From a virus, in IMG/VR virus record IMGVR_UViG_3300017706_000140, positions 1-20,413 of that record: a DNA stretch of 20,413 nucleotides. One strand, written 5' to 3'. Position 1 is the first letter of the stretch. Every line of letters starts with the position of its first letter. The notes under the pieces are model-generated. The model saw only the letters and a list, made by a program, of their open reading frames with translations. It did not search any database and was not told the origin of the DNA. Made by a program: the position numbers and the translations under genes. Positions 817-19,561 of the stretch are shown here, in pieces.

Positions 817-1776
817 TTATACAGCCTCGGCATATTCCAATGCTTTGTCGAGAGCTTTTAGTTTTACCTTTCGGTTACGTCCATACCATGCAGACTGTAA
901 ACGTCCGTCATTGGAACGACCTTGAAGGTGGTCTGTCATGTTAGTGACAGAGTTGAATGCAGTCCACCAAGTACCCTGAGCAAACTCAGCGCCAGGTTGT
1001 ACATCCAAATTCTCAAAAGCAAGTTTTGAGTTACGAGAAGTGAAAGGAACAACATTGTCTACTTTCTCTTTCGCAGGCGCACCAAACACTTCGTTGAAGT
1101 ATTGGATTACGTTATCACCAGTTGCTTTCTTTGAACCAAGAAATGCAGCCATTGATTTGTATTGTTCCATTTTCTCACGAGCAATACCCATCTGTTCTTT
1201 CACATCTTCAGCATCAAATGCTTTTCGGTGATTTACTGTTACCATTTGGTCAGCATTTTGTGATAGGGAAAGTGCGAGGGTGTTACTACATACAACACGA
1301 ATTGGTGTCATGCGAACATTAATCGCTTTACCAAACTGATGTGGATTAGAAAACAAAAAGTAGTTATCTGTAACATCACCGTTAAATAGTTCAAATGACT
1401 CTTTAGTTTTTGCAAGAGCCCATACCATTTGTCCATCTTTCAATGAACCAGCAGTATGCATTTCCATGTCACCTGACATGCAGTACTCATGGAAAAATTC
1501 AAACGCCTCTGAGTTCTGTACTGGATTCCAACCAGTACCAACAACATCTAATACAGTGTTGTCAGATGTACGAACAAGTGCTTCCTTGTTCTTTACCGTC
1601 ACACCAGATGGTGTAACAAGTGGTTGTTTTTCAACTGTCCAATCAAGTCCAGCAACCTTTTGGAATTGGTCTGGTGTAAGTTCTTCTTCCACCTTAGTTC
1701 CAAGTCCATGCCATGGTAATTCACCGACATACGCCATTTGTGCTTCACCGTTTACGATTTCAAGTTCATGTGCCAT
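817..1776 (-). CDS. DUF932 domain phage/plasmid-like protein
   Basis: This 319-aa protein matches the DUF932 family by its N-terminal pattern, including AYVGELPWHGLG (about residues 15-26), a Trp-rich start typical of the family, and the central VRMTPIRVVCSNTLALSLSQ (about 154-173). The family is widespread on phages and plasmids; its biochemical role is not established, so no function is assigned. The C-terminal segment (about 260-319) ends with basic RNRKVKLKALDKALEYAE, which could contact nucleic acid. The ATG is preceded by an AGGAGA ribosome site and by an excellent sigma70 promoter at 1823-1851. This suggests early expression, unlike its late-promoter neighbour hsp20. The length is normal for the family and there is no sign of truncation. 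Confidence 0.85.
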   Translation of the reverse strand: MAHELEIVNGEAQMAYVGELPWHGLGTKVEEELTPDQFQKVAGLDWTVEKQPLVTPSGVTVKNKEALVRTSDNTVLDVVGTGWNPVQNSEAFEFFHEYCMSGDMEMHTAGSLKDGQMVWALAKTKESFELFNGDVTDNYFLFSNPHQFGKAINVRMTPIRVVCSNTLALSLSQNADQMVTVNHRKAFDAEDVKEQMGIAREKMEQYKSMAAFLGSKKATGDNVIQYFNEVFGAPAKEKVDNVVPFTSRNSKLAFENLDVQPGAEFAQGTWWTAFNSVTNMTDHLQGRSNDGRLQSAWYGRNRKVKLKALDKALEYAEAV

Positions 1777-1822
1777 AATATAATGTCTCCTAACGACTCT
1801 GTTTTTATCAACTTACCTATAC

Positions 1823-1851
1823 AGTATACCTGTTATAATAACAAATGTCAA
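1823..1851 (-). promoter_or_regulatory. sigma70-type promoter for the DUF932 gene
   Basis: On the minus strand TTGACA (1846-1851) is separated by exactly 17 bases from TATACT (1823-1828), 47 bases upstream of the DUF932 ATG. The -35 overlaps the stop codon of def (1848-1850). This is one of the clearest host-type promoters in the window and implies early transcription. Confidence 0.75.
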
Positions 1852-2378
1852 GATGTTTTTAGAACTTTTTTATTCTTTTTTCTAGCTTTTTTCAAACCCA
1901 TTTCAAGTTTGAGTTTAGATGCCCACATGGTAAAGTTACGTCCTTGCATATGGTCGAACTCATGTTGGAATATTCTTGCAGTGATACCACTAAACTGTGC
2001 TTGTCTTTGTTCACCATTCACATCCATAAATTCAAAACTAATTTGTTTTGGTCTTCTTATATTCAGAAATAGATTCGGATACGTCAAACATCCCTCAACA
2101 AATAGTTCTGTTTCTTCAGAAGTGTTTGTAATCTTAGGATTGAAAAATATTGTTGCTGCCTTCTTATCCAAGTCTGTCATCATTACAAATGCTCTGATAG
2201 GAAGTCCACACTGATTTGCAGACAAACCAATACCTTTGTACTTTGTCATTGCTTCACCTAAGTTGTCAAACAATTCTTTTGGTTCAAGTCCAAACTTTTC
2301 TTTCAACTCTTCAAAGGTAATATCAGGCAATACTTCTTGTAGAATTGGTTCATTCGGATCAATTAATTCATATGTCAT
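1848..2378 (-). CDS. def: Peptide deformylase
   Basis: Metalloenzyme that removes the formyl group from the N-terminal methionine of new proteins. All three family motifs are present: GIGLSANQCG (motif 1, with Ser where most have Ala), EGCLTYP with the metal-binding Cys, and QHEFDH with the two metal-binding His and the catalytic Glu. I place the start at the ATG at 2378, giving 176 aa. Its ATG overlaps the TGA of the upstream methyltransferase gene (ATGA), and GGGGAAG lies just ahead as ribosome site. An in-frame TTG four codons earlier would use that site as coding sequence and is less likely. The C-terminus is lysine-rich. Peptide deformylases are common in marine T4-like phages, where they are thought to keep fast protein synthesis going. 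Confidence 0.93.
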   Translation of the reverse strand: MTYELIDPNEPILQEVLPDITFEELKEKFGLEPKELFDNLGEAMTKYKGIGLSANQCGLPIRAFVMMTDLDKKAATIFFNPKITNTSEETELFVEGCLTYPNLFLNIRRPKQISFEFMDVNGEQRQAQFSGITARIFQHEFDHMQGRNFTMWASKLKLEMGLKKARKKNKKVLKTS

Positions 2379-2896
2379 GTTCTTCCCCAAAATTCAATAG
2401 GTTTATGTTGTTCTGTGTCGTGAAATAGATACCAACAACAGTTATCTTTTCCAACACTTTTACTATCTTCAATCCACTTAACTCTTCCTATACTAACAAC
2501 TTTTTGTAACTTTGTCAAGAAGGGAATTGACTGTTTTGTATGTATCCAATCTGCATCAAATAATAACCAAGTTGGAGCCATAGATGTAAGATGTTCTATT
2601 AAAGGATGTAATATCTTTCTATCCCAAGGCGGATTTGTAATAAAGAATGGTGTATTAACTTGTTTCAATAACATCGCATCACGTTCAACAACTCTATCAT
2701 TTCTTGGTTCTACGTCATACGCCTGTGTGCATGTTCCACCATGTTTTTCCAAGTGATCTATTAGTCTACCATCACCAGCACAAGGTTCAGTAAATGTGTA
2801 CAACTCTGGAAGGTGTTCAACTAGAGGTAGGACAGCTTGATAGGGGGTTGGATAATAATCCCTTGGTATTCTTTCAAAGTCACTACGTTTTCCCAT
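2375..2896 (-). CDS. SAM-dependent DNA methyltransferase-like protein (N6-adenine type)
   Basis: This 173-aa protein has class I methyltransferase signatures. DYYPTP at residues 13-18 resembles the leading motif of phage N6-adenine methylases, EPCAGDG at 37-43 is the SAM-binding motif I, and ITNPPW at 86-91 is the (D/N)PP(Y/W) catalytic motif IV. The C-terminal stretch VKWIEDSKSVGKDNCCWYLF fits the last strands of the same fold. The order of motifs is that of small phage Dam-like enzymes. There is little room for a target recognition domain, so specificity cannot be predicted. Its start overlaps the gp46 stop (TAATG) and its stop overlaps the def start (ATGA), so translation is probably coupled in the gp47-gp46-MTase-def run. 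The N6-adenine assignment is inferred from motifs; another small-molecule or RNA substrate is possible. Confidence 0.7.
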   Translation of the reverse strand: MGKRSDFERIPRDYYPTPYQAVLPLVEHLPELYTFTEPCAGDGRLIDHLEKHGGTCTQAYDVEPRNDRVVERDAMLLKQVNTPFFITNPPWDRKILHPLIEHLTSMAPTWLLFDADWIHTKQSIPFLTKLQKVVSIGRVKWIEDSKSVGKDNCCWYLFHDTEQHKPIEFWGRT

Positions 2897-4605
2897 TATG
2901 TCACCATATGACTAAAGTTCTTTTCTTTCTTGAACTGGATAATGTCTCTAAACTTATCAATCAAAATATCTTGTTTGTGTGATATAACAAATACATTCTG
3001 TTTGTCAAATGTATTAAGTATTTTCAAGAAATCATCTGTACCAGTATTATCCAAAGACGAATCAAATATCTCATCTAGAATTAGTAGATTTGTATTTGTA
3101 GAGTTTTTCATCTTTGCAATAGCTCTCCAAGTAAACAACAATGCAAGGTCGATACGCATCTTCTCACCTTCAGAAAATGATGCATAAGAAAACTCATCTC
3201 TAAAACGTGACTTGATTGTTTCGTTGAAGTTCTCATCAATATTAAAGTTGACAAAGAAATCCATACTCGACAAATAAGTGTTGACAAGTTTATTCATTAT
3301 TGGTAAGTACTGTTTTACAATCTTTGTTTTGATACCACTATCTTGTAGAAGATTACGAGCAATATCATTGTAAAACTTATCTTCAGTTAACTTAGATTTT
3401 AGTTCTTCAACTATTTTGATTGCACCTTTTAGTTCTGATAGTTTTTCTTTATCATCATCAGATACAGAACCAGCTTCATACTTTGCAATATCTTTTTCTA
3501 GTTTTTTATTGAACTTTTCTAATTCAGAAATAGAAGAACGTATCTTTGCAATCTCTACATCTGCACTTCTAATATTGTCCAAGTCTCTAAGAATTTGATC
3601 TAAGAACTCTTCACTGGACTTTTCCATTTCTTCAATTTCTCCGATTGCTCGGTCGAGTTCTCCAATCTTTGAGGTTCTAGATTCAATCTGCGTCTGCTTT
3701 GTTGACTCTGTAATCGACTGTTCACAAGTCGGACATTCTGAGTTGTTCTGGAAAAATTCGATTTGTTTCTCATGGTTTCCTCGTTTGTTAACTAATGCAG
3801 CTTCCGTCTTACTTAGTTCTCTTATCTTTGCCTCTGTTCTTGTTTTTTCCTCTGCTGAGAATGATAAACTTTCCTTCTCATCGCTAAGAGTTTTAATTTC
3901 TTCTTCTTTTGACGTAATATTTTTTTCATTGTCACTTACTTTCTTTTTGTTTTCGGTGATGATATCTGATTTATTATTTGCTACGTCCTCAATGAATCTT
4001 TCTTGTAAAGAAATCTTTTCTCTAGTTATATCATGTTGATATTCAACATTACGAATTTCTTCATTTAGTTCTTTAGTTTTACTTTTTAGTAAGAAGTTCA
4101 TCAAAGAAAAAATCTTAATGTCTAAGATATCTTCAACAACTTCTCTACGAGCCTTTGTAGACAACTGCATAAATGGAACAAAGGTAGAAGAACCTAGAAT
4201 AACAACCTGAGTAAAGGAACGATAGTTCAATCCTAAGATTTGTTGTTCTAGATGTTTCTGATAATCCCTTGCATTTGCATCTTGATTAATCATAGTGTCA
4301 CCAATCCAAACTTCAAATTTGTTTGGTTTGATACCACGAATAACTTTTACATCTTTACTGTTAACATTAAATTCAACTTCAACAAGAGCAGAACCATTGT
4401 TGACTGAGTTTACTAATTGTCCTTTTGAAATATTCCTAAACGGTTTATTAAAAAGACCAAAACAAAGAGCATCAAGAATAGTACTTTTACCAGCACCATT
4501 CTCTCCGATAATTAAAGTAGTTGAACTTCTGTCCAACTGCACTTCTGTAAATTGGTTTCCAGTGGAAAGAAAGTTTTTCCACTTAACGGTTTTAAATGTT
4601 ATCAA
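2896..4605 (-). CDS. 46: Recombination endonuclease subunit gp46 (Rad50/SbcC-like ATPase)
   Basis: This 569-aa SMC-type ATPase forms, with gp47, the T4 Mre11/Rad50-type complex that resects DNA ends for recombination-dependent replication and helps degrade host DNA. Walker A is GENGAGKST at 34-42. A long coiled coil covers roughly 170-400 and carries the zinc hook CPTC at 291-294 at its turn. The ABC signature is SFSEGEKMRID near 476-486, and Walker B is LLILDEIFD at 507-515. The length matches T4 gp46 (about 560 aa). The only start that fits is a TTG at 4605, which overlaps the gp47 TGA by four bases (TTGA), so translation is coupled to gp47. The N-terminus ITFKTVKWKNFLSTG aligns with the start of the T4 family, supporting the TTG. 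Confidence 0.96.
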   Translation of the reverse strand: MITFKTVKWKNFLSTGNQFTEVQLDRSSTTLIIGENGAGKSTILDALCFGLFNKPFRNISKGQLVNSVNNGSALVEVEFNVNSKDVKVIRGIKPNKFEVWIGDTMINQDANARDYQKHLEQQILGLNYRSFTQVVILGSSTFVPFMQLSTKARREVVEDILDIKIFSLMNFLLKSKTKELNEEIRNVEYQHDITREKISLQERFIEDVANNKSDIITENKKKVSDNEKNITSKEEEIKTLSDEKESLSFSAEEKTRTEAKIRELSKTEAALVNKRGNHEKQIEFFQNNSECPTCEQSITESTKQTQIESRTSKIGELDRAIGEIEEMEKSSEEFLDQILRDLDNIRSADVEIAKIRSSISELEKFNKKLEKDIAKYEAGSVSDDDKEKLSELKGAIKIVEELKSKLTEDKFYNDIARNLLQDSGIKTKIVKQYLPIMNKLVNTYLSSMDFFVNFNIDENFNETIKSRFRDEFSYASFSEGEKMRIDLALLFTWRAIAKMKNSTNTNLLILDEIFDSSLDNTGTDDFLKILNTFDKQNVFVISHKQDILIDKFRDIIQFKKEKNFSHMVT

Positions 4606-5678
4606 AGTTCTAAATCACTCGCTTCTACATATAACGACTTCATCGTGCTTGTTAGTCGTTTCTTATCCAAGTCAACATCGAGTTCATCAATGTATCTTTC
4701 CAATAGTGTCATAGTATCTTCTGCATTCTCTACGATTGCATCATCTACATTAGACGCATCAAGTTCACTAAAGTCTTCTACAATTTTTACCTCATGGGCT
4801 CCAGATTCAGATAAAACTCTATCAATGAATCTATCAAACTTGTAGAAATCTTTTTTATTGACAACCACTATTTTAACAAATTTATCTCGTAATGTCAATA
4901 CGTTAAAATCAGAATAATCTGTAGTAGTATCATCATAATATACCTTGTCAAAGATTGTATGTGGATTTAGAATGTATTCTAGTTCTCTTGTTTCTGTATC
5001 AAAGATATGGAAACCTTTTGTTTCTTTGTAATCACTCCATGTCATCTGATAGGTGTTACCAAGATAGTAAATATGACCATCATCTGACTTCTTGTGGAAA
5101 TGTCCACTCATTACAGTATCAAACTTATTGAACATTTCTTTTGGATACCCACCTTCACAAAAATGTCCAGCATGCATTTCAAAACCATTTAGTTCCAAGT
5201 GACCCATACAAATTTGTGCATAGGTTGATTGAATACTTCTCATTGCACGTTCATAGTTTTCTGCATTTATCCAAGGCATAAAATGAATACCAACACCATC
5301 GAACTCTTCAGTACATGGCCCATCGTAACATTTAATGTTTGGATATTTTTCTTCGCCTGGCCCACCAAGCAATTCATACAAAGAGTTTACCTCATTTGTA
5401 TTTTTATAGTAGGTATCGTGATTACCTACCATCATGTGAACATCTAATTTTCTACTTGCAAGAGGTAGAACAAAACGCTCACGAAAATCCTTTGCAATCT
5501 TGTATGAAACATACTTACGTCTGTCCATTACATCGCCAAGGTGAATAACTGTTTTAATGTCGTGTTTATCTATATAAGGGAAAAACTCTTCTTCCCAAAA
5601 TTTGTAGAAGTAATCATTAAATGCTAAGTTATCGTTTCGTGCGCCAAAGTGTGTATCAGTTATTAACGCTATCTTCAT
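4602..5678 (-). CDS. 47: Recombination endonuclease subunit gp47 (Mre11/SbcD-like nuclease)
   Basis: This 358-aa metallophosphoesterase is the nuclease subunit of the gp46/gp47 complex. The phosphoesterase motifs are in order: DTH (D8, H10), GDVMDRR (D49), GNHD (85-88), a metal-binding region around GH at 159-160, and GHFH (192-195). The C-terminal third should bind the gp46 coiled-coil base. The length is close to T4 gp47 (339 aa). The ATG lies inside the 3' end of gp55 (overlap of 23 bases), and the stop overlaps the TTG of gp46. It therefore sits in a tightly packed run gp55-47-46 driven by the promoter at 6243-6270. Confidence 0.96.
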   Translation of the reverse strand: MKIALITDTHFGARNDNLAFNDYFYKFWEEEFFPYIDKHDIKTVIHLGDVMDRRKYVSYKIAKDFRERFVLPLASRKLDVHMMVGNHDTYYKNTNEVNSLYELLGGPGEEKYPNIKCYDGPCTEEFDGVGIHFMPWINAENYERAMRSIQSTYAQICMGHLELNGFEMHAGHFCEGGYPKEMFNKFDTVMSGHFHKKSDDGHIYYLGNTYQMTWSDYKETKGFHIFDTETRELEYILNPHTIFDKVYYDDTTTDYSDFNVLTLRDKFVKIVVVNKKDFYKFDRFIDRVLSESGAHEVKIVEDFSELDASNVDDAIVENAEDTMTLLERYIDELDVDLDKKRLTSTMKSLYVEASDLEL

Positions 5679-6216
5679 TTATCTCTTCACCGTCATCATC
5701 ATAAAATATTTCAAGTCCTTTGGGTTGTTTCTTTTTCTTCTTTGGTTTGTAAACAGCTTCAGCTGGTAGAAAGTTCTTTTGTAGATAGTCTACAAATGCA
5801 CCTTGATCACCATCTCCATCCATAAGAATATCAACATTCATGTTCTCAATAATCTTGTGTTTAACATGTTGTTGTTTCTTTTCCTTTTGTATTCTACGAA
5901 TAAATGCATAGTAAATGATTTGTGTAAAATATGCAAAAGGATTGTTTGATTTTTCTGGATTGAAGTTACTGCAATATTGTAAACAGTTTTCAATACCATC
6001 AGAAATCATTTCATCTCTATAGGTATAATTAATAAAATTTGGTCTGTATGATAAGTGGTTTGCAATCTTTAGAAAACACTCACCAATATAATTTGTAACA
6101 GGTGGTTGAGGATCATCTTCTTCTTCTGCCTCTTTACAACGCTGTTTCCACTCTTTCATCGCCTCCAAGAATTTCTTGTTATCGACATAGTGAGTGCTTC
6201 TTTGTCTTTTAGCCAT
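5656..6216 (-). CDS. 55: Late-transcription sigma factor gp55
   Basis: This 186-aa protein is the T4-type sigma factor that binds host RNA polymerase core and recognises TATAAATA late promoters. The visible signature is a sigma region 2-like helix pair, FAYFTQIIYYAFIRRIQKEK (about residues 93-112), preceded by a conserved region with NYIGECFLKIANHLSYRPNF. The size equals T4 gp55 (185 aa). The C-terminus is acidic (DDDGEEINED) and should carry the clamp-contacting tail. A GGAG ribosome site precedes the ATG. The gene heads the gp55-gp47-gp46-MTase-def run and has a strong sigma70 promoter, as expected for a regulator made before late genes. Six exact late boxes in this window are its predicted targets. 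Confidence 0.93.
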   Translation of the reverse strand: MAKRQRSTHYVDNKKFLEAMKEWKQRCKEAEEEDDPQPPVTNYIGECFLKIANHLSYRPNFINYTYRDEMISDGIENCLQYCSNFNPEKSNNPFAYFTQIIYYAFIRRIQKEKKQQHVKHKIIENMNVDILMDGDGDQGAFVDYLQKNFLPAEAVYKPKKKKKQPKGLEIFYDDDGEEINEDSVNN

Positions 6217-15477: not shown

Positions 15478-17487
15478 TTATCCCCCTACCTCTGAAAATG
15501 CTACCCCAGTTCTCACTGCGATAAAGTTTAGTTGAATGAAGTTGATTGAACGTGCTGGTTTGATAAAGATATCTCCAACAAATTCATTTCTATCAATTAC
15601 TTCACCTGTGTTATTTGTTCCATCTGCAACAACCTTGAAGTCGGTAATACCTCTTCTACCTTGTACATCTCTTAGGAATGGTTCAACAAGATTTTTGAAT
15701 TGTGCTTGAGTAAACGCATCGTTAATTTCAAAGAGTTGAAACTTAGCAGCAGTTGCAATTGCCTTTTCAAGAACAAGGAACAATCTACGGACGTTAATCC
15801 TATCGAATGCACTTGGTCTAGACAATGCAGTTTTATCACCGAAGAGAACAGTACCTTGGCCTGGGAATGTGCAAACAGGGTTTACACGAGCAGGATAAAG
15901 TATATCTCTTTCTGCTTTTGTTGGGTTGTATGCAAGTTTTACTGAACCACGAATTTGTCCTCTGTTGTAACCAGCTGGTGAGAACCAAGGGTCAGCAACA
16001 GTGTCTGCATTTGCACATAGTCCAGCAGTATCACCGTTCAATGGAACGTAACGATACACATCACTATACTTGTCGTACATATACTTGTATCCACTATCGA
16101 ATACTGCATATGAAGAACTTGCAAGAAGGTCAAAGAAACCTTTGACGTTTGATGTTTGTGCGGCACCTGTTGTGACACCTACAACATCAGCTGATCTTGG
16201 TGAAATAAATGCAACACAATCTTTTCTTTTCTCTGCGAGGTCGATTAGACTAGTTGCATGTGTTACACCACCAGTACCAGCAGGAGATTGTCCACCGATA
16301 ATTAAGTTAACATCTACTGTGTCTGCATCACTAAATTTTTCGTATGCAACATCCAGTTCACCTACAGTAGGCGCAAGTGGATTTGCAGTACCGTCTGCAC
16401 CACCACCAAGAGCATCATTAATGATACCAGCTTTACCAGCTGTTGATGCGAATGTAGTACCAGAAGCTGGATTTGATCCAGCAGCAGATAGTGTTGAATG
16501 GTGATCCAACCAACGTACAAATTCTGAACCTAAGTTGACTACGTTTGCATAGAAGTTGCTGTTACCTTGTGGTGTTCTTGCATTTCCTGCCTGAGATACA
16601 AATGGGAAAGTTTCAAGTACTGAATTTCCTCTTTGTCCAGCAAGGTCGTTATCGAAACCACTGATACCACCAGTTTTATCAAATACTACGACATGCATCT
16701 CATCTGAAACAAGTCCTCTGTCAGCAGCATAAGTTGATGTGCCTGGCGCAGCATCAAACAAGTCATAGAATCTCCAGCGTCTGCGAACATTAGTTGCCGC
16801 AACTAAGGCAGATTTAAGTCCACCACCACTAGGATTGTCTAGTTGTCTAATTGTTAAGTTGTCAGTTGAAATTGCAGTAACTTCATACTGTTGTCCGTCT
16901 GCTTCTTGAAAGAATACAATGTCACCAACATTGAATGCAGCACCACCGTCACCAGCAGAACCACCACCGTTGTCAACACCGACAGTTGTTGCACCAGCAG
17001 CTGGTGTACCTGTTGTTACACCTAGTGTACCAGCAGAACCAGTAAAGTTTTGTTCAAACCCTGTTGAGTTTGCACATATTGATGTTCCTAGAGCATTACC
17101 GTAAGCGCCTGGGAATTTAGATCCCCAGTTTCCTACAGAAGCTTGCCCACCAGCATAATTTGCATCGTAAACATCATCGTTATTAATTTGCAATCCAGCA
17201 CCGTTTGCTGTTGCGTTTTTAGATCCTGCCATGTTAGCACGAACTACACGCAAAGCATTACTGTATTGCAAGAAGTTGGCGCTTGAAAACCATGTTTCAT
17301 AGTTGTCAGAAGTTGGTTTACCAAAAATACTTACCAGCTCTTGCTCCGAACCAATTGAAACGACTTCATCTACTGGGCCTTGTGTAAAGTGTCCAGCGAG
17401 CGCTCCGATTGATGTTGCAACAGCAGGCACAACATTGGTAAGATCAACTTCCTTGACTAATACGCCAGGGGATACTTGAAATGCCAT
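15478..17487 (-). CDS. 18: Tail sheath protein gp18
   Basis: This 669-aa contractile sheath subunit (T4 gp18 is 659 aa) wraps the gp19 tube. The N-terminus FQVSPGVLVKEVDLTNVVPA is the standard sheath start. The C-terminal core domain contains VKLAYNPTKAERDILYPARV, VNPVCTFPGQGTVLFGDKTA and NVRRLFLVLEKAIATAAKFQ, all typical. The variable middle holds a Gly/Ala-rich stretch (about 150-190) followed by a small beta unit (FNVGDIVFFQEADGQQYEV), probably a surface domain. The ATG has an AAGGAGA site and an exact late promoter at 17542-17549. Confidence 0.97.
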   Translation of the reverse strand: MAFQVSPGVLVKEVDLTNVVPAVATSIGALAGHFTQGPVDEVVSIGSEQELVSIFGKPTSDNYETWFSSANFLQYSNALRVVRANMAGSKNATANGAGLQINNDDVYDANYAGGQASVGNWGSKFPGAYGNALGTSICANSTGFEQNFTGSAGTLGVTTGTPAAGATTVGVDNGGGSAGDGGAAFNVGDIVFFQEADGQQYEVTAISTDNLTIRQLDNPSGGGLKSALVAATNVRRRWRFYDLFDAAPGTSTYAADRGLVSDEMHVVVFDKTGGISGFDNDLAGQRGNSVLETFPFVSQAGNARTPQGNSNFYANVVNLGSEFVRWLDHHSTLSAAGSNPASGTTFASTAGKAGIINDALGGGADGTANPLAPTVGELDVAYEKFSDADTVDVNLIIGGQSPAGTGGVTHATSLIDLAEKRKDCVAFISPRSADVVGVTTGAAQTSNVKGFFDLLASSSYAVFDSGYKYMYDKYSDVYRYVPLNGDTAGLCANADTVADPWFSPAGYNRGQIRGSVKLAYNPTKAERDILYPARVNPVCTFPGQGTVLFGDKTALSRPSAFDRINVRRLFLVLEKAIATAAKFQLFEINDAFTQAQFKNLVEPFLRDVQGRRGITDFKVVADGTNNTGEVIDRNEFVGDIFIKPARSINFIQLNFIAVRTGVAFSEVGG

Positions 17488-17541: not shown

Positions 17542-17549
17542 TATTTATA
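17542..17549 (-). promoter_or_regulatory. T4-type late promoter (TATAAATA) for gp18-gp19
   Basis: Exact TATAAATA on the minus strand, 55 bases before the gp18 ATG. The leader has a 6-bp hairpin, AAGTTT/AAACTT with a 3-nt loop (17520-17534). Confidence 0.78.
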
Positions 17550-17590
17550 AAAAACCTTCTCTTCATTTATTTTTTATAGGTTTTGCGGCA

Positions 17591-17598
17591 CATAAATA
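17591..17598 (+). promoter_or_regulatory. Possible late box (CATAAATA) for the divergent HNH-like gene
   Basis: The plus strand reads CATAAATA five bases before the ATG at 17604. If used as a late promoter, transcription would start at or inside the first codon, giving a leaderless message. It may instead be chance. Confidence 0.25.
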
Positions 17599-17603
17599 AT
17601 TAT

Positions 17604-17903
17604 ATGTCAGAGCACTATCAGAAATACAAAGAAACCATAAAAAAGGTTTCCCAACGCAATTATAGAGCTAGAAAGATATGGGTAAACCAATATCTCTCTA
17701 ATAAAGTCTGTAATTACTGTGGGGAATCTGAAACCGCATGTCTCCAATTTTATCCCTATGAAGGGAAAATACGAAATCTTACTAAAAGAAAAGGATTAAA
17801 TGAAGAATCTAGAACTGAAGTTGTAGGTTTAATCAATGAATCCAAAGTTGTGTGTGCAAACTGTTTCTTAAAGTTAGATAACGATATTATTGATATTATG
17901 TAG
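17604..17903 (+). CDS. Degenerate HNH-type zinc protein, opposite strand, between gp18 and gp17
   Basis: The only plus-strand gene, 99 aa from ATG 17604; a TTG at 17583 would add seven residues but has a poorly spaced ribosome site. The pattern is that of a small HNH endonuclease: CNYCG (C36, C39), then CLQFYP where the active enzymes have L-x-F-H-H, then VVCANC (C84, C87) where active ones continue with His. The four zinc cysteines are kept but the catalytic histidines are replaced (YP at 50-51, F88). It is therefore probably a structural zinc or DNA-binding protein rather than a nuclease. The N-terminal 30 residues are basic and helical. It converges with gp17, with a 14-base gap and no terminator. 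Confidence 0.75.
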   Translation: MSEHYQKYKETIKKVSQRNYRARKIWVNQYLSNKVCNYCGESETACLQFYPYEGKIRNLTKRKGLNEESRTEVVGLINESKVVCANCFLKLDNDIIDIM

Positions 17904-17917
17904 GTATTTGATGTTTT

Positions 17918-19561
17918 CTACCAATCCGAATCGTGACTACGAACTACTGGACTCCATCTTTGACCGTATTCATCAACAACAGCCTCACCATAATCATTTA
18001 CTCCATCTACAATAAATCCAAATGGAGCCATATCTTGTTCTAGTTGATTTTGTTGTTCTAAGTACATTCTAGCACGAATGTCATCATCTGTCAACTCCTT
18101 AAAATAAGTCTGTTGAACTAACCAACCAAATAACACACAACACATTGCAAGGTCATCACAATGTCCTTCCTCAGCCTCATAAGACTGTCCTTTAAGTATA
18201 AATGTAGAAAATTCATTTATTAGTTCATAATCTTGTATAATTAGTTTATCAGTCTCAATAATTTGTTTAAGATTTGAACAACCCATCTTTTTTACTGCTT
18301 TAGTTGTTCTTACTCCCAACTGTGCTTTTCCCCCTGAGAACCCACCGCCAACGACTTGGCCTGCACGACCACGCATTGAAGCCATAATAAGGTTCTCATA
18401 CTCCAAGTCAAACTGTAGAGCAGAAGCAACTTGTTCACCTATATCATTTACCTCTATCATAGTATATGCAAGGTTATATGCAGTAGCAACTTCATGGATT
18501 ATGTTAGGAAATAGTAAAGGTTTTATTTGATTGTTACGGTATTTTGCAACTATTTTATAGGGAACAGTTGATACGTCAAATACAATAAACGCAGAGTAAT
18601 CATTGTTTGTTCCTCTTGACACATCAGCAATTAGTGTATATGTATGTTTTTCTTTTGGATTTTCATAAACATCCAACCCAGCATTTGACTTGGTAGGAGT
18701 ATGAAATGCCATTGTCTTAATCTTTGCAGCTGCAATAAGTGTATTAGAAGAACCAAGAAACTCACAATCAAACTCTCTTCTGAACTGTTCCTCAGAGGTG
18801 TTTGCGATTGTTTCTGTTCTCCACATCTCATCACGGCCAGGCACTTGACTCCAATGAACATCTATGATATTGTATGAGTTACGTTTATTCTCTGCGTCTA
18901 CCCAAAGTTTGTAGAACAAGTTCATACCGTTTGGTGTAGAAACAATAATAACCTTTGTAGACTTACCAGATGAAATTGTAGGATAAACAGAACTAAAGAA
19001 GTCCTCTGCAACATTAGTAGGAACGAATGCAAATTCGTCCAAGAATATCATGTTGTAAGAACCACCACGAACTGCACTTGAAGATGTTGATGAAGCAACT
19101 ACACGAGAACCGTTCTCTAAGTCCACTGAACCCTTGTTCCAAGACACAACTCCTTGTTGTAACCACTTGGGTAGGTTCTCGTATGCAAGTTGCAAACGTC
19201 CAAGAATATCTCGTGCAGTCGCAGCCTTGTTAGCAAGGATTGCAACATTCATATTATCATTGAAAAGAACGTAGTGAAGAATGTAAGATACCATAGTCGT
19301 GGATTTACCAGACTGTCGTGGCATTTTACATATAGTGAATCTATCATTATGAATTGTATCTACGATATCTTCTTGGAAGTCATACATTTCAAAAGGAACG
19401 AGTCCTTCATCAAGAGATACAATTTTAATGTAATTTTTAATAAAGTATATGGGGTTTTCCATACACTTCTGGTATTCTAAAATATTCTCTTTTGTCCAGT
19501 TTACTGGAACATTAGATTTTTTTAGTAGTGGGTTTCCAAGATAGTGTTCATAATTTGACAT
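17918..19561 (-). CDS. 17: Terminase large subunit gp17
   Basis: This 547-aa packaging motor combines an ATPase with a headful nuclease. The N-terminal ATPase has Walker A PRQSGKST (81-88), Walker B MIFLDEFA (171-178) and coupling motif STPNG (208-212). The C-terminal RNase H-like nuclease shows IADVSRGTNNDYSAF (D313, D321), IEVNDIG (370-376) and GHCDDLAM, the expected acidic cluster. T4 gp17 is 610 aa; the difference is mostly at the ends. The start ATG is 11 bases past the stop of the 86-aa gene and lacks a clear ribosome site, with AATAAATA (19567-19574) just ahead, so its expression signal is uncertain. No gp16 small terminase gene is visible next to it. Confidence 0.97.
   Translation of the reverse strand: MSNYEHYLGNPLLKKSNVPVNWTKENILEYQKCMENPIYFIKNYIKIVSLDEGLVPFEMYDFQEDIVDTIHNDRFTICKMPRQSGKSTTMVSYILHYVLFNDNMNVAILANKAATARDILGRLQLAYENLPKWLQQGVVSWNKGSVDLENGSRVVASSTSSSAVRGGSYNMIFLDEFAFVPTNVAEDFFSSVYPTISSGKSTKVIIVSTPNGMNLFYKLWVDAENKRNSYNIIDVHWSQVPGRDEMWRTETIANTSEEQFRREFDCEFLGSSNTLIAAAKIKTMAFHTPTKSNAGLDVYENPKEKHTYTLIADVSRGTNNDYSAFIVFDVSTVPYKIVAKYRNNQIKPLLFPNIIHEVATAYNLAYTMIEVNDIGEQVASALQFDLEYENLIMASMRGRAGQVVGGGFSGGKAQLGVRTTKAVKKMGCSNLKQIIETDKLIIQDYELINEFSTFILKGQSYEAEEGHCDDLAMCCVLFGWLVQQTYFKELTDDDIRARMYLEQQNQLEQDMAPFGFIVDGVNDYGEAVVDEYGQRWSPVVRSHDSDW

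Follow-up and report, generated by a model that had tools for sequence, protein, structure and literature searches.

What becomes of a homing-type endonuclease gene once its catalytic histidines are gone, and why would a phage keep it, on the opposite strand, between the genes for its tail sheath and its large terminase? The question is raised by a small gene in a 20,413-nucleotide stretch of viral DNA (IMG/VR record IMGVR_UViG_3300017706_000140, positions 1 to 20,413, hereafter the window). Homing endonucleases are usually viewed as selfish elements that spread, decay and are lost, and here one was apparently fixed after the loss of its active site in a large lineage of marine T4-type phages. 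The best reading of the data is that a homing-type nuclease became fixed in the distant past and has been retained as a late protein that no longer cuts but probably binds DNA.

Position of the gene and its neighbours

The gene spans positions 17604..17903 on the + strand, from the ATG at 17604 to the TAG at 17901-17903, and encodes a protein of 99 residues (11.7 kDa, pI 9.0). Its neighbours, gp18 for the tail sheath (15478..17487), identified by synteny with the annotated genome of the cultured Methylophilales phage Melnitz, and gp17 for the large terminase (17918..19561), both lie on the − strand, so that the gene diverges from gp18 and converges with gp17, with 14 bp between the two stop codons. 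The open reading frame from 17583 to 17903 is uninterrupted in the window, in agreement with the earlier note, which had placed it on the strand opposite to the sheath and terminase genes between which it lies. The start at a TTG (17583) given there had to be abandoned in favour of the ATG at 17604, because in Melnitz a stop codon interrupts the upstream extension and the deposited coding sequence begins at the equivalent ATG.

The Melnitz ortholog is gene 200 (QZI94926.1, annotated as ‘hypothetical protein’), which is also antisense at the gp17/gp18 junction and encodes a protein 76-78% identical to that of the window. In the rightward block of that genome (from approximately 62.8 kb to the record end) it is the sole annotated − strand gene besides three open reading frames of 96-99 bp. 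The location is fixed well beyond these two phages: in all 271 testable loci the gene diverges from gp18, including 154 of 154 in the deeper clades, and in 243 of 265 it converges with a nearby gp17, as scored by the distance limits of the script (116/116 in the closer clade, 127/149 in the deeper ones). The 22 misses all fall in the deeper clades; among the 12 that were itemised, gp17 is farther off in four and was not found in eight.

Two T4-like marine phages, Prochlorococcus phage Syn1 (stretch 5138-5377) and Marine virus AG-345-F15 (5741-5968), have at the gp17/gp18 junction a different, sense-oriented gene of 75-79 codons. It is matched by phrog_4723 ‘endonuclease VII’ and seems to correspond to no more than the zinc-finger half, the N-terminal one, of these nucleases; that one junction holds two different nuclease-derived zinc proteins, HNH-like and endonuclease VII-like, is curious. 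HTVC008M (stretch 1552-3511) carries genes for a phytanoyl-CoA dioxygenase and a tryptophan halogenase between its two terminase genes, where Melnitz has a gene with an F5/8 type C domain.

HNH ancestry

The 99-residue protein is matched by the PHROG family phrog_2255 ‘HNH endonuclease’ with an E value of 1.6e-6 (hmmscan), and PHROG HNH families match all 24 relatives scanned in the same way. Comparison by hhalign with seven phage HNH proteins that retain the general-base histidine gave a probability of 98.6 with an alignment of 24 sequences and of 98.7 with one of 82, so that the profile searches proposed in the earlier note do relate the protein to HNH. A Pfam search with the window protein returned no HNH match, the relatives gave weak matches, some of them to zinc ribbons, and the best E value in a sequence search of solved structures was 0.072.

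At the structural level, an AlphaFold2 model built from the 82-sequence alignment reached a mean pLDDT of 85.3, an earlier one from a narrow alignment being weaker (73.7). In a library of viral structures the top match was the HNH protein of Halogranum tailed virus 1 (probability 1.00, E 1.9e-3, TMq 0.63), and 34 of the 50 printed matches were named HNH or HNHc, none of the 50 reaching an E value of 0.001; against solved structures, neither model yielded a Foldseek match at E 0.001. An HNH nicking enzyme came first with both models in a second aligner (VIA; Z 3.3 and 4.0), that found with the 82-sequence model being the Gme enzyme 4h9d (Z 4.0, rmsd 3.9, 61 residues aligned), which alone proves little. 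The unrelated zinc ribbon that the earlier note had considered did not emerge from structure prediction, the viral-library matches being mostly HNH and those to solved structures falling short of significance. Taken together, the PHROG and hhalign matches identify the protein as a true HNH relative, and the viral-library matches point to the HNH proteins as well. Caution is called for where annotation pipelines may call such dead genes nucleases.

Loss of the catalytic histidines

HNH catalysis depends on a general-base histidine within an LxF(H/D)H motif and on a metal-ligand histidine that follows the last CxxC pair. With residues counted from the ATG at 17604, the window protein has the pairs C36-x2-C39 and C84-x2-C87, and carries Y50-P51 and F88 at the former histidine sites, just as had been read initially from the letters: two C-x2-C pairs in an HNH layout, with YP and F replacing the active-site histidines. 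Position 51, the site of the general base, is proline in all 285 related loci, and position 88 is Phe in 138, Trp in 84, Tyr in 61 and Ser in two of them; not one of the 285 has histidine at either position. The zinc cysteine pairs are present in every one of these loci, and P51 and the four cysteines are invariant in the 82-row alignment. The proline also follows the LQF-x motif in 80 of 80 contigs selected by gp17. The seven live HNH proteins, instead, have LxF or LxL followed by (H/D)H with the general-base histidine in 7/7, and a histidine after the last CxxC in 6/7, the seventh sequence ending before the site.

From these residues it appears very probable that the protein has no nuclease activity. 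No intact HNH ancestor was found at the gp17/gp18 junction among the loci read, the scans covering mostly the best 80 matches and one of them at least 508 relatives; in the collection of phage records, residues were read for the Melnitz copies and seven other matches.

Selection and inheritance

The median dN/dS, obtained from 116 loci of the clade to which the window belongs (3,555 pairs whose divergence was usable), is 0.076 for the HNH-like gene versus 0.166 for codons 1-80 of gp18 in the same pairs. Across divergence bins it ranges from 0.076 to 0.112, with 1,104 of 3,741 pairs excluded because of saturation at synonymous sites. That the function of the protein is under selection is therefore close to certain, and simple decay is rejected by such purifying selection (dN/dS approximately 0.08-0.11) together with the losses common to 285 of 285 relatives. 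Of the alternatives offered in the earlier note, the decaying homing endonuclease thus falls and the reuse of an HNH fold without catalysis is supported, the role of ‘DNA or protein-binding factor’ continuing as a proposal; nor did the relatives show intact HNH residues beside a window copy under relaxed selection, as had been envisaged there.

The gene is present in all of 80 contigs picked by gp17 alone (the best 80 of 207), 79 of which have no in-frame stop in the part read. In the remaining one (3300023110_000884), codon 65 reads TAG in frame, through either a true nonsense change or a sequencing error, and the other codons are readable. Contigs picked by gp17 of Pelagibacter phage Mosig (the best 80 of 291) have the gene in none of 80 cases, and in the 76 that are readable the junction measures just 108-145 bp; the gene was also not found at the gp17/gp18 junction of HTVC008M, P-SSM2, Syn1 and AG-345-F15. 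The pattern of 80/80 versus 0/80 differs from the patchy distribution, with some close relatives having an empty site, that is expected of a mobile homing gene. Moreover, distances between the HNH-like proteins track those of gp18 (Spearman coefficient 0.64, not equalled in any of 999 permutations, 77 loci). The gene is not decaying and is not behaving as a mobile gene.

As for its distribution, the sole close relatives among 50,697 phage records come from four isolates of Melnitz (76% identity to the protein of the window, E 7e-49); the Melnitz copies match a deeper member of the family at 57% (E 5e-34), and the next matches in phage records (E 1e-4 and 2e-7) either are HNH proteins or lack an annotation. 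Relatives are encoded in IMG/VR by at least 508 candidate stretches, counted among 600. One divergent member protein, 76% identical to that of the window, is the same in the contigs 3300017911, 3300017903 and 3300017914. In the genome collection, 234 pattern matches yielded no confirmed relative at the sensitivity applied. No paper on the family was found in the open-licence PMC literature, as judged by titles and the beginnings of abstracts, and the words ‘HNH’ and ‘homing’ do not occur in the text of the papers on Melnitz (PMC9004378) and on pelagimyophage mining (PMC7029224).

A late-promoter 8-mer at the start codon and a box between promoters

The HNH-like gene has a T4-type late-promoter 8-mer of its own, CATAAATA at 17591..17598 (+), exactly 5 nt before the ATG. 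In all 283 testable loci the 8-mer, in the general form NATAAATA, ends 1-8 nt before the ATG, the distance being 5 nt in 267. In T4 late promoters, as described in PMC2988020, the box lies approximately one helical turn before the transcription start site, being numbered from −13, and there is no conserved −35 element. By this geometry, transcription of the HNH-like gene is predicted to start at or beside the A of the ATG. Since, furthermore, none of four purine-rich ribosome-site 4-mers occurs within 20 nt of the ATG in any of 81 representatives, the mRNA is predicted to be a leaderless late one. Genes 104, 112 and 200 of Melnitz each begin 5 nt after a late-promoter 8-mer (record positions 54812, 62276 and 121054), which suggests a small class of leaderless late mRNAs. 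The late-type 8-mers of Melnitz are strand-biased, with 24 forward and four reverse, the latter being 5-43 nt 5' of annotated reverse-strand genes.

Between this promoter and the divergent late promoter of gp18 (8-mer TATAAATA, 17542..17549, −) lies an AT-rich box, TTTTTATAGG, at 17571..17580 (+), with the core TTTATA at 17573-17578, which is a candidate operator or an element of one of the two promoters. The motif TTTATA[T/G/A] is found between the two promoters in 80 of 81 representatives; its distance to ATAAATA is 12-13 nt in 79/80, and that to the gp18 promoter 23-26 nt in 78/79. The bases that separate the box from ATAAATA are mostly weakly conserved (0.07-0.5 bits), except for the three directly before it (1.0-1.2 bits); closer to the gp18 promoter, a further stretch shows moderate conservation (at most 1.3 bits), so that the box is not the sole conserved non-promoter sequence of the interval. 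With its exact core and at the given spacing, the box precedes one of 28 late-type 8-mers in Melnitz and one of eight in the window, in both cases that of the HNH-like gene, and it is therefore not a general late-promoter element. When the promoter is left out of the pattern, the motif by itself recurs at one or two other places in Melnitz, depending on how it is written, and at one further place in the window.

The box could be an operator. As it reads TATAAAA on the − strand, a sequence similar to a late promoter, it may also be a (weak) second gp18 promoter. A sigma-70 reading was rejected: the match is weak (9/12) and the bases after ATAAATA, at the end of the second hexamer, are not conserved.

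Proposed origin and role

From these observations, we infer that a free-standing homing-type HNH gene may have entered, on the strand opposite to the late genes, the gp17/gp18 junction of a phage ancestral to the Melnitz-like marine T4-type group. The general-base histidine would have been replaced by Pro51, and the histidine after the last CxxC by a mostly aromatic residue at position 88, before the members examined here separated, the zinc-knuckle fold and the basic N-terminal helix being retained and the protein presumably kept as useful. The protein is most likely a late product, expressed from the late promoter that precedes its gene and translated without a conventional ribosome site. 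It would bind the AT-rich DNA between gp18 and its own gene, which includes the gp18 promoter, the middle box and its own promoter, and such binding may tune late transcription of gp18, of its own gene, or of both.

That the protein is a DNA-binding late regulator at this junction is the reading that we tentatively favour, with a confidence that stays below even, on the basis of the conserved basic N-terminal helix and of the inter-promoter box. Among the seven segments compared, this helix scores highest in mean column identity (0.80), narrowly ahead of the second zinc segment (0.77) and the former active-site segment (0.74), and residues 1-35 carry a net charge of +7. Against the regulator speaks the fact that the basic helix is also present in cutting relatives and is no proof of DNA binding, and the same conservation would be expected from a partner of the terminase or of a host protein. 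A more specific version, in which the domesticated HNH protein would be a dedicated non-cutting switch of late transcription that reads the three-box element, is made from a leaderless mRNA and is under stronger constraint than residues 1-80 of the sheath, is possible but rather doubtful.

Active HNH proteins adjoining the terminase genes act in DNA packaging in some siphophages, and the dead protein might be a packaging partner that contacts gp17 or the portal without cutting. The 14 bp that separate the gene from the gp17 stop codon in the window, the convergent gp17 neighbour in every testable locus of the closer clade (116/116) and the predicted late timing would suit packaging. However, the gene is antisense to gp17 and thus outside the gp17 operon, in the deeper clades gp17 is adjacent less regularly than gp18 (127/149 versus 154/154), related Mosig-like phages do without the gene (none of the best 80), and packaging HNH proteins require their catalytic residues, all of which makes this role unlikely. 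We regard as similarly improbable that a small zinc protein acting in late host takeover, or associated with the virion, binds a host or virion protein and owes its location to history. A small, highly conserved product with a zinc-knuckle fold and its own promoter, whose C-terminal tail is conserved as well (mean column identity 0.72), would fit this role, but the box at fixed spacing between the promoters would be left unexplained.

It is very unlikely that the protein is still a nuclease by means of a shifted histidine, H52, one residue past the usual position, and of other ligands: of 82 representatives, 70 have H52 and 23 have H50, but the window protein has tyrosine at both positions and a single histidine, H4 (Phe in many relatives), and Pro51 and the lack of His88 are common to all 285 loci. 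Hardly likely at all is the proposal that the DNA or RNA matters rather than the protein, the insert being retained because of an antisense late transcript or because its deletion would disturb the gp18 promoter. The gene is indeed antisense and convergent to gp17 with the short gap between stops mentioned above, and no terminator-like site turned up there when the + strand was scanned. There is also a precedent in T4, where, according to the review PMC2988022, antisense transcripts can come from inserted endonuclease genes and embedded essential promoters favour retention, though in the present case the gp18 promoter adjoins the gene rather than lying inside it. The dN/dS of approximately 0.08-0.11, instead, shows that selection acts on the protein sequence.

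The late regulator that we prefer makes the HNH-like protein a concrete candidate for the control of divergent late promoters at the terminase/sheath junction, and the use made of a dead homing enzyme is directly testable in a cultured phage, Melnitz.

Comparison with known systems

The closest terms of comparison are the free-standing phage HNH endonucleases of phrog_2255 and phrog_3106, such as Felix O1 ORF47 and gene 89 of Halogranum tailed virus 1 (the PHROG assignment was tested for both), along with crAss001 Gp8 and gene 32 of Streptomyces phage WhereRU. The window protein shares with them the order of elements of the C-terminal domain, namely a basic helix, CxxCGE, an LxF hairpin and C-x-N-C. 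Those that were read at full length have an N-terminal extension, in some cases with another CxxC pair, which is absent here, and they keep the two histidines that are both replaced in the window protein. Their surroundings also differ, with tRNA genes nearby in five of six annotated loci fetched, and one beside the terminase. Within the family itself, gene 200 of Melnitz has H50-P51-H52 where the window has Y-P-Y. Terminase-associated packaging HNH proteins of the HK97 gp74 type are encoded on the strand of the terminase and have intact catalytic residues; the HNH-like gene lies on the opposite strand and has lost them. The residues found argue against site-specific cleavage, and against homing, by the window protein.

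Among T4 genes, segD, as described in PMC2988022, is similar in being a free-standing gene of endonuclease type that is antisense between genes 23 and 24 in the late structural block. It differs in belonging to the GIY-YIG family and in that no promoter of its own was found, whereas the HNH-like gene has a conserved late-type promoter. I-TevI, also of T4, offers a functional analogy only, being a GIY-YIG, intron-encoded and still active nuclease: according to PMC2988022 it is a homing enzyme that also represses its own late promoter by binding DNA. The analogy is again only functional with T4 DsbA, which according to PMC2988020 is a non-essential protein of approximately 10 kDa with low-affinity, AT-rich binding sites at each of two late promoters.
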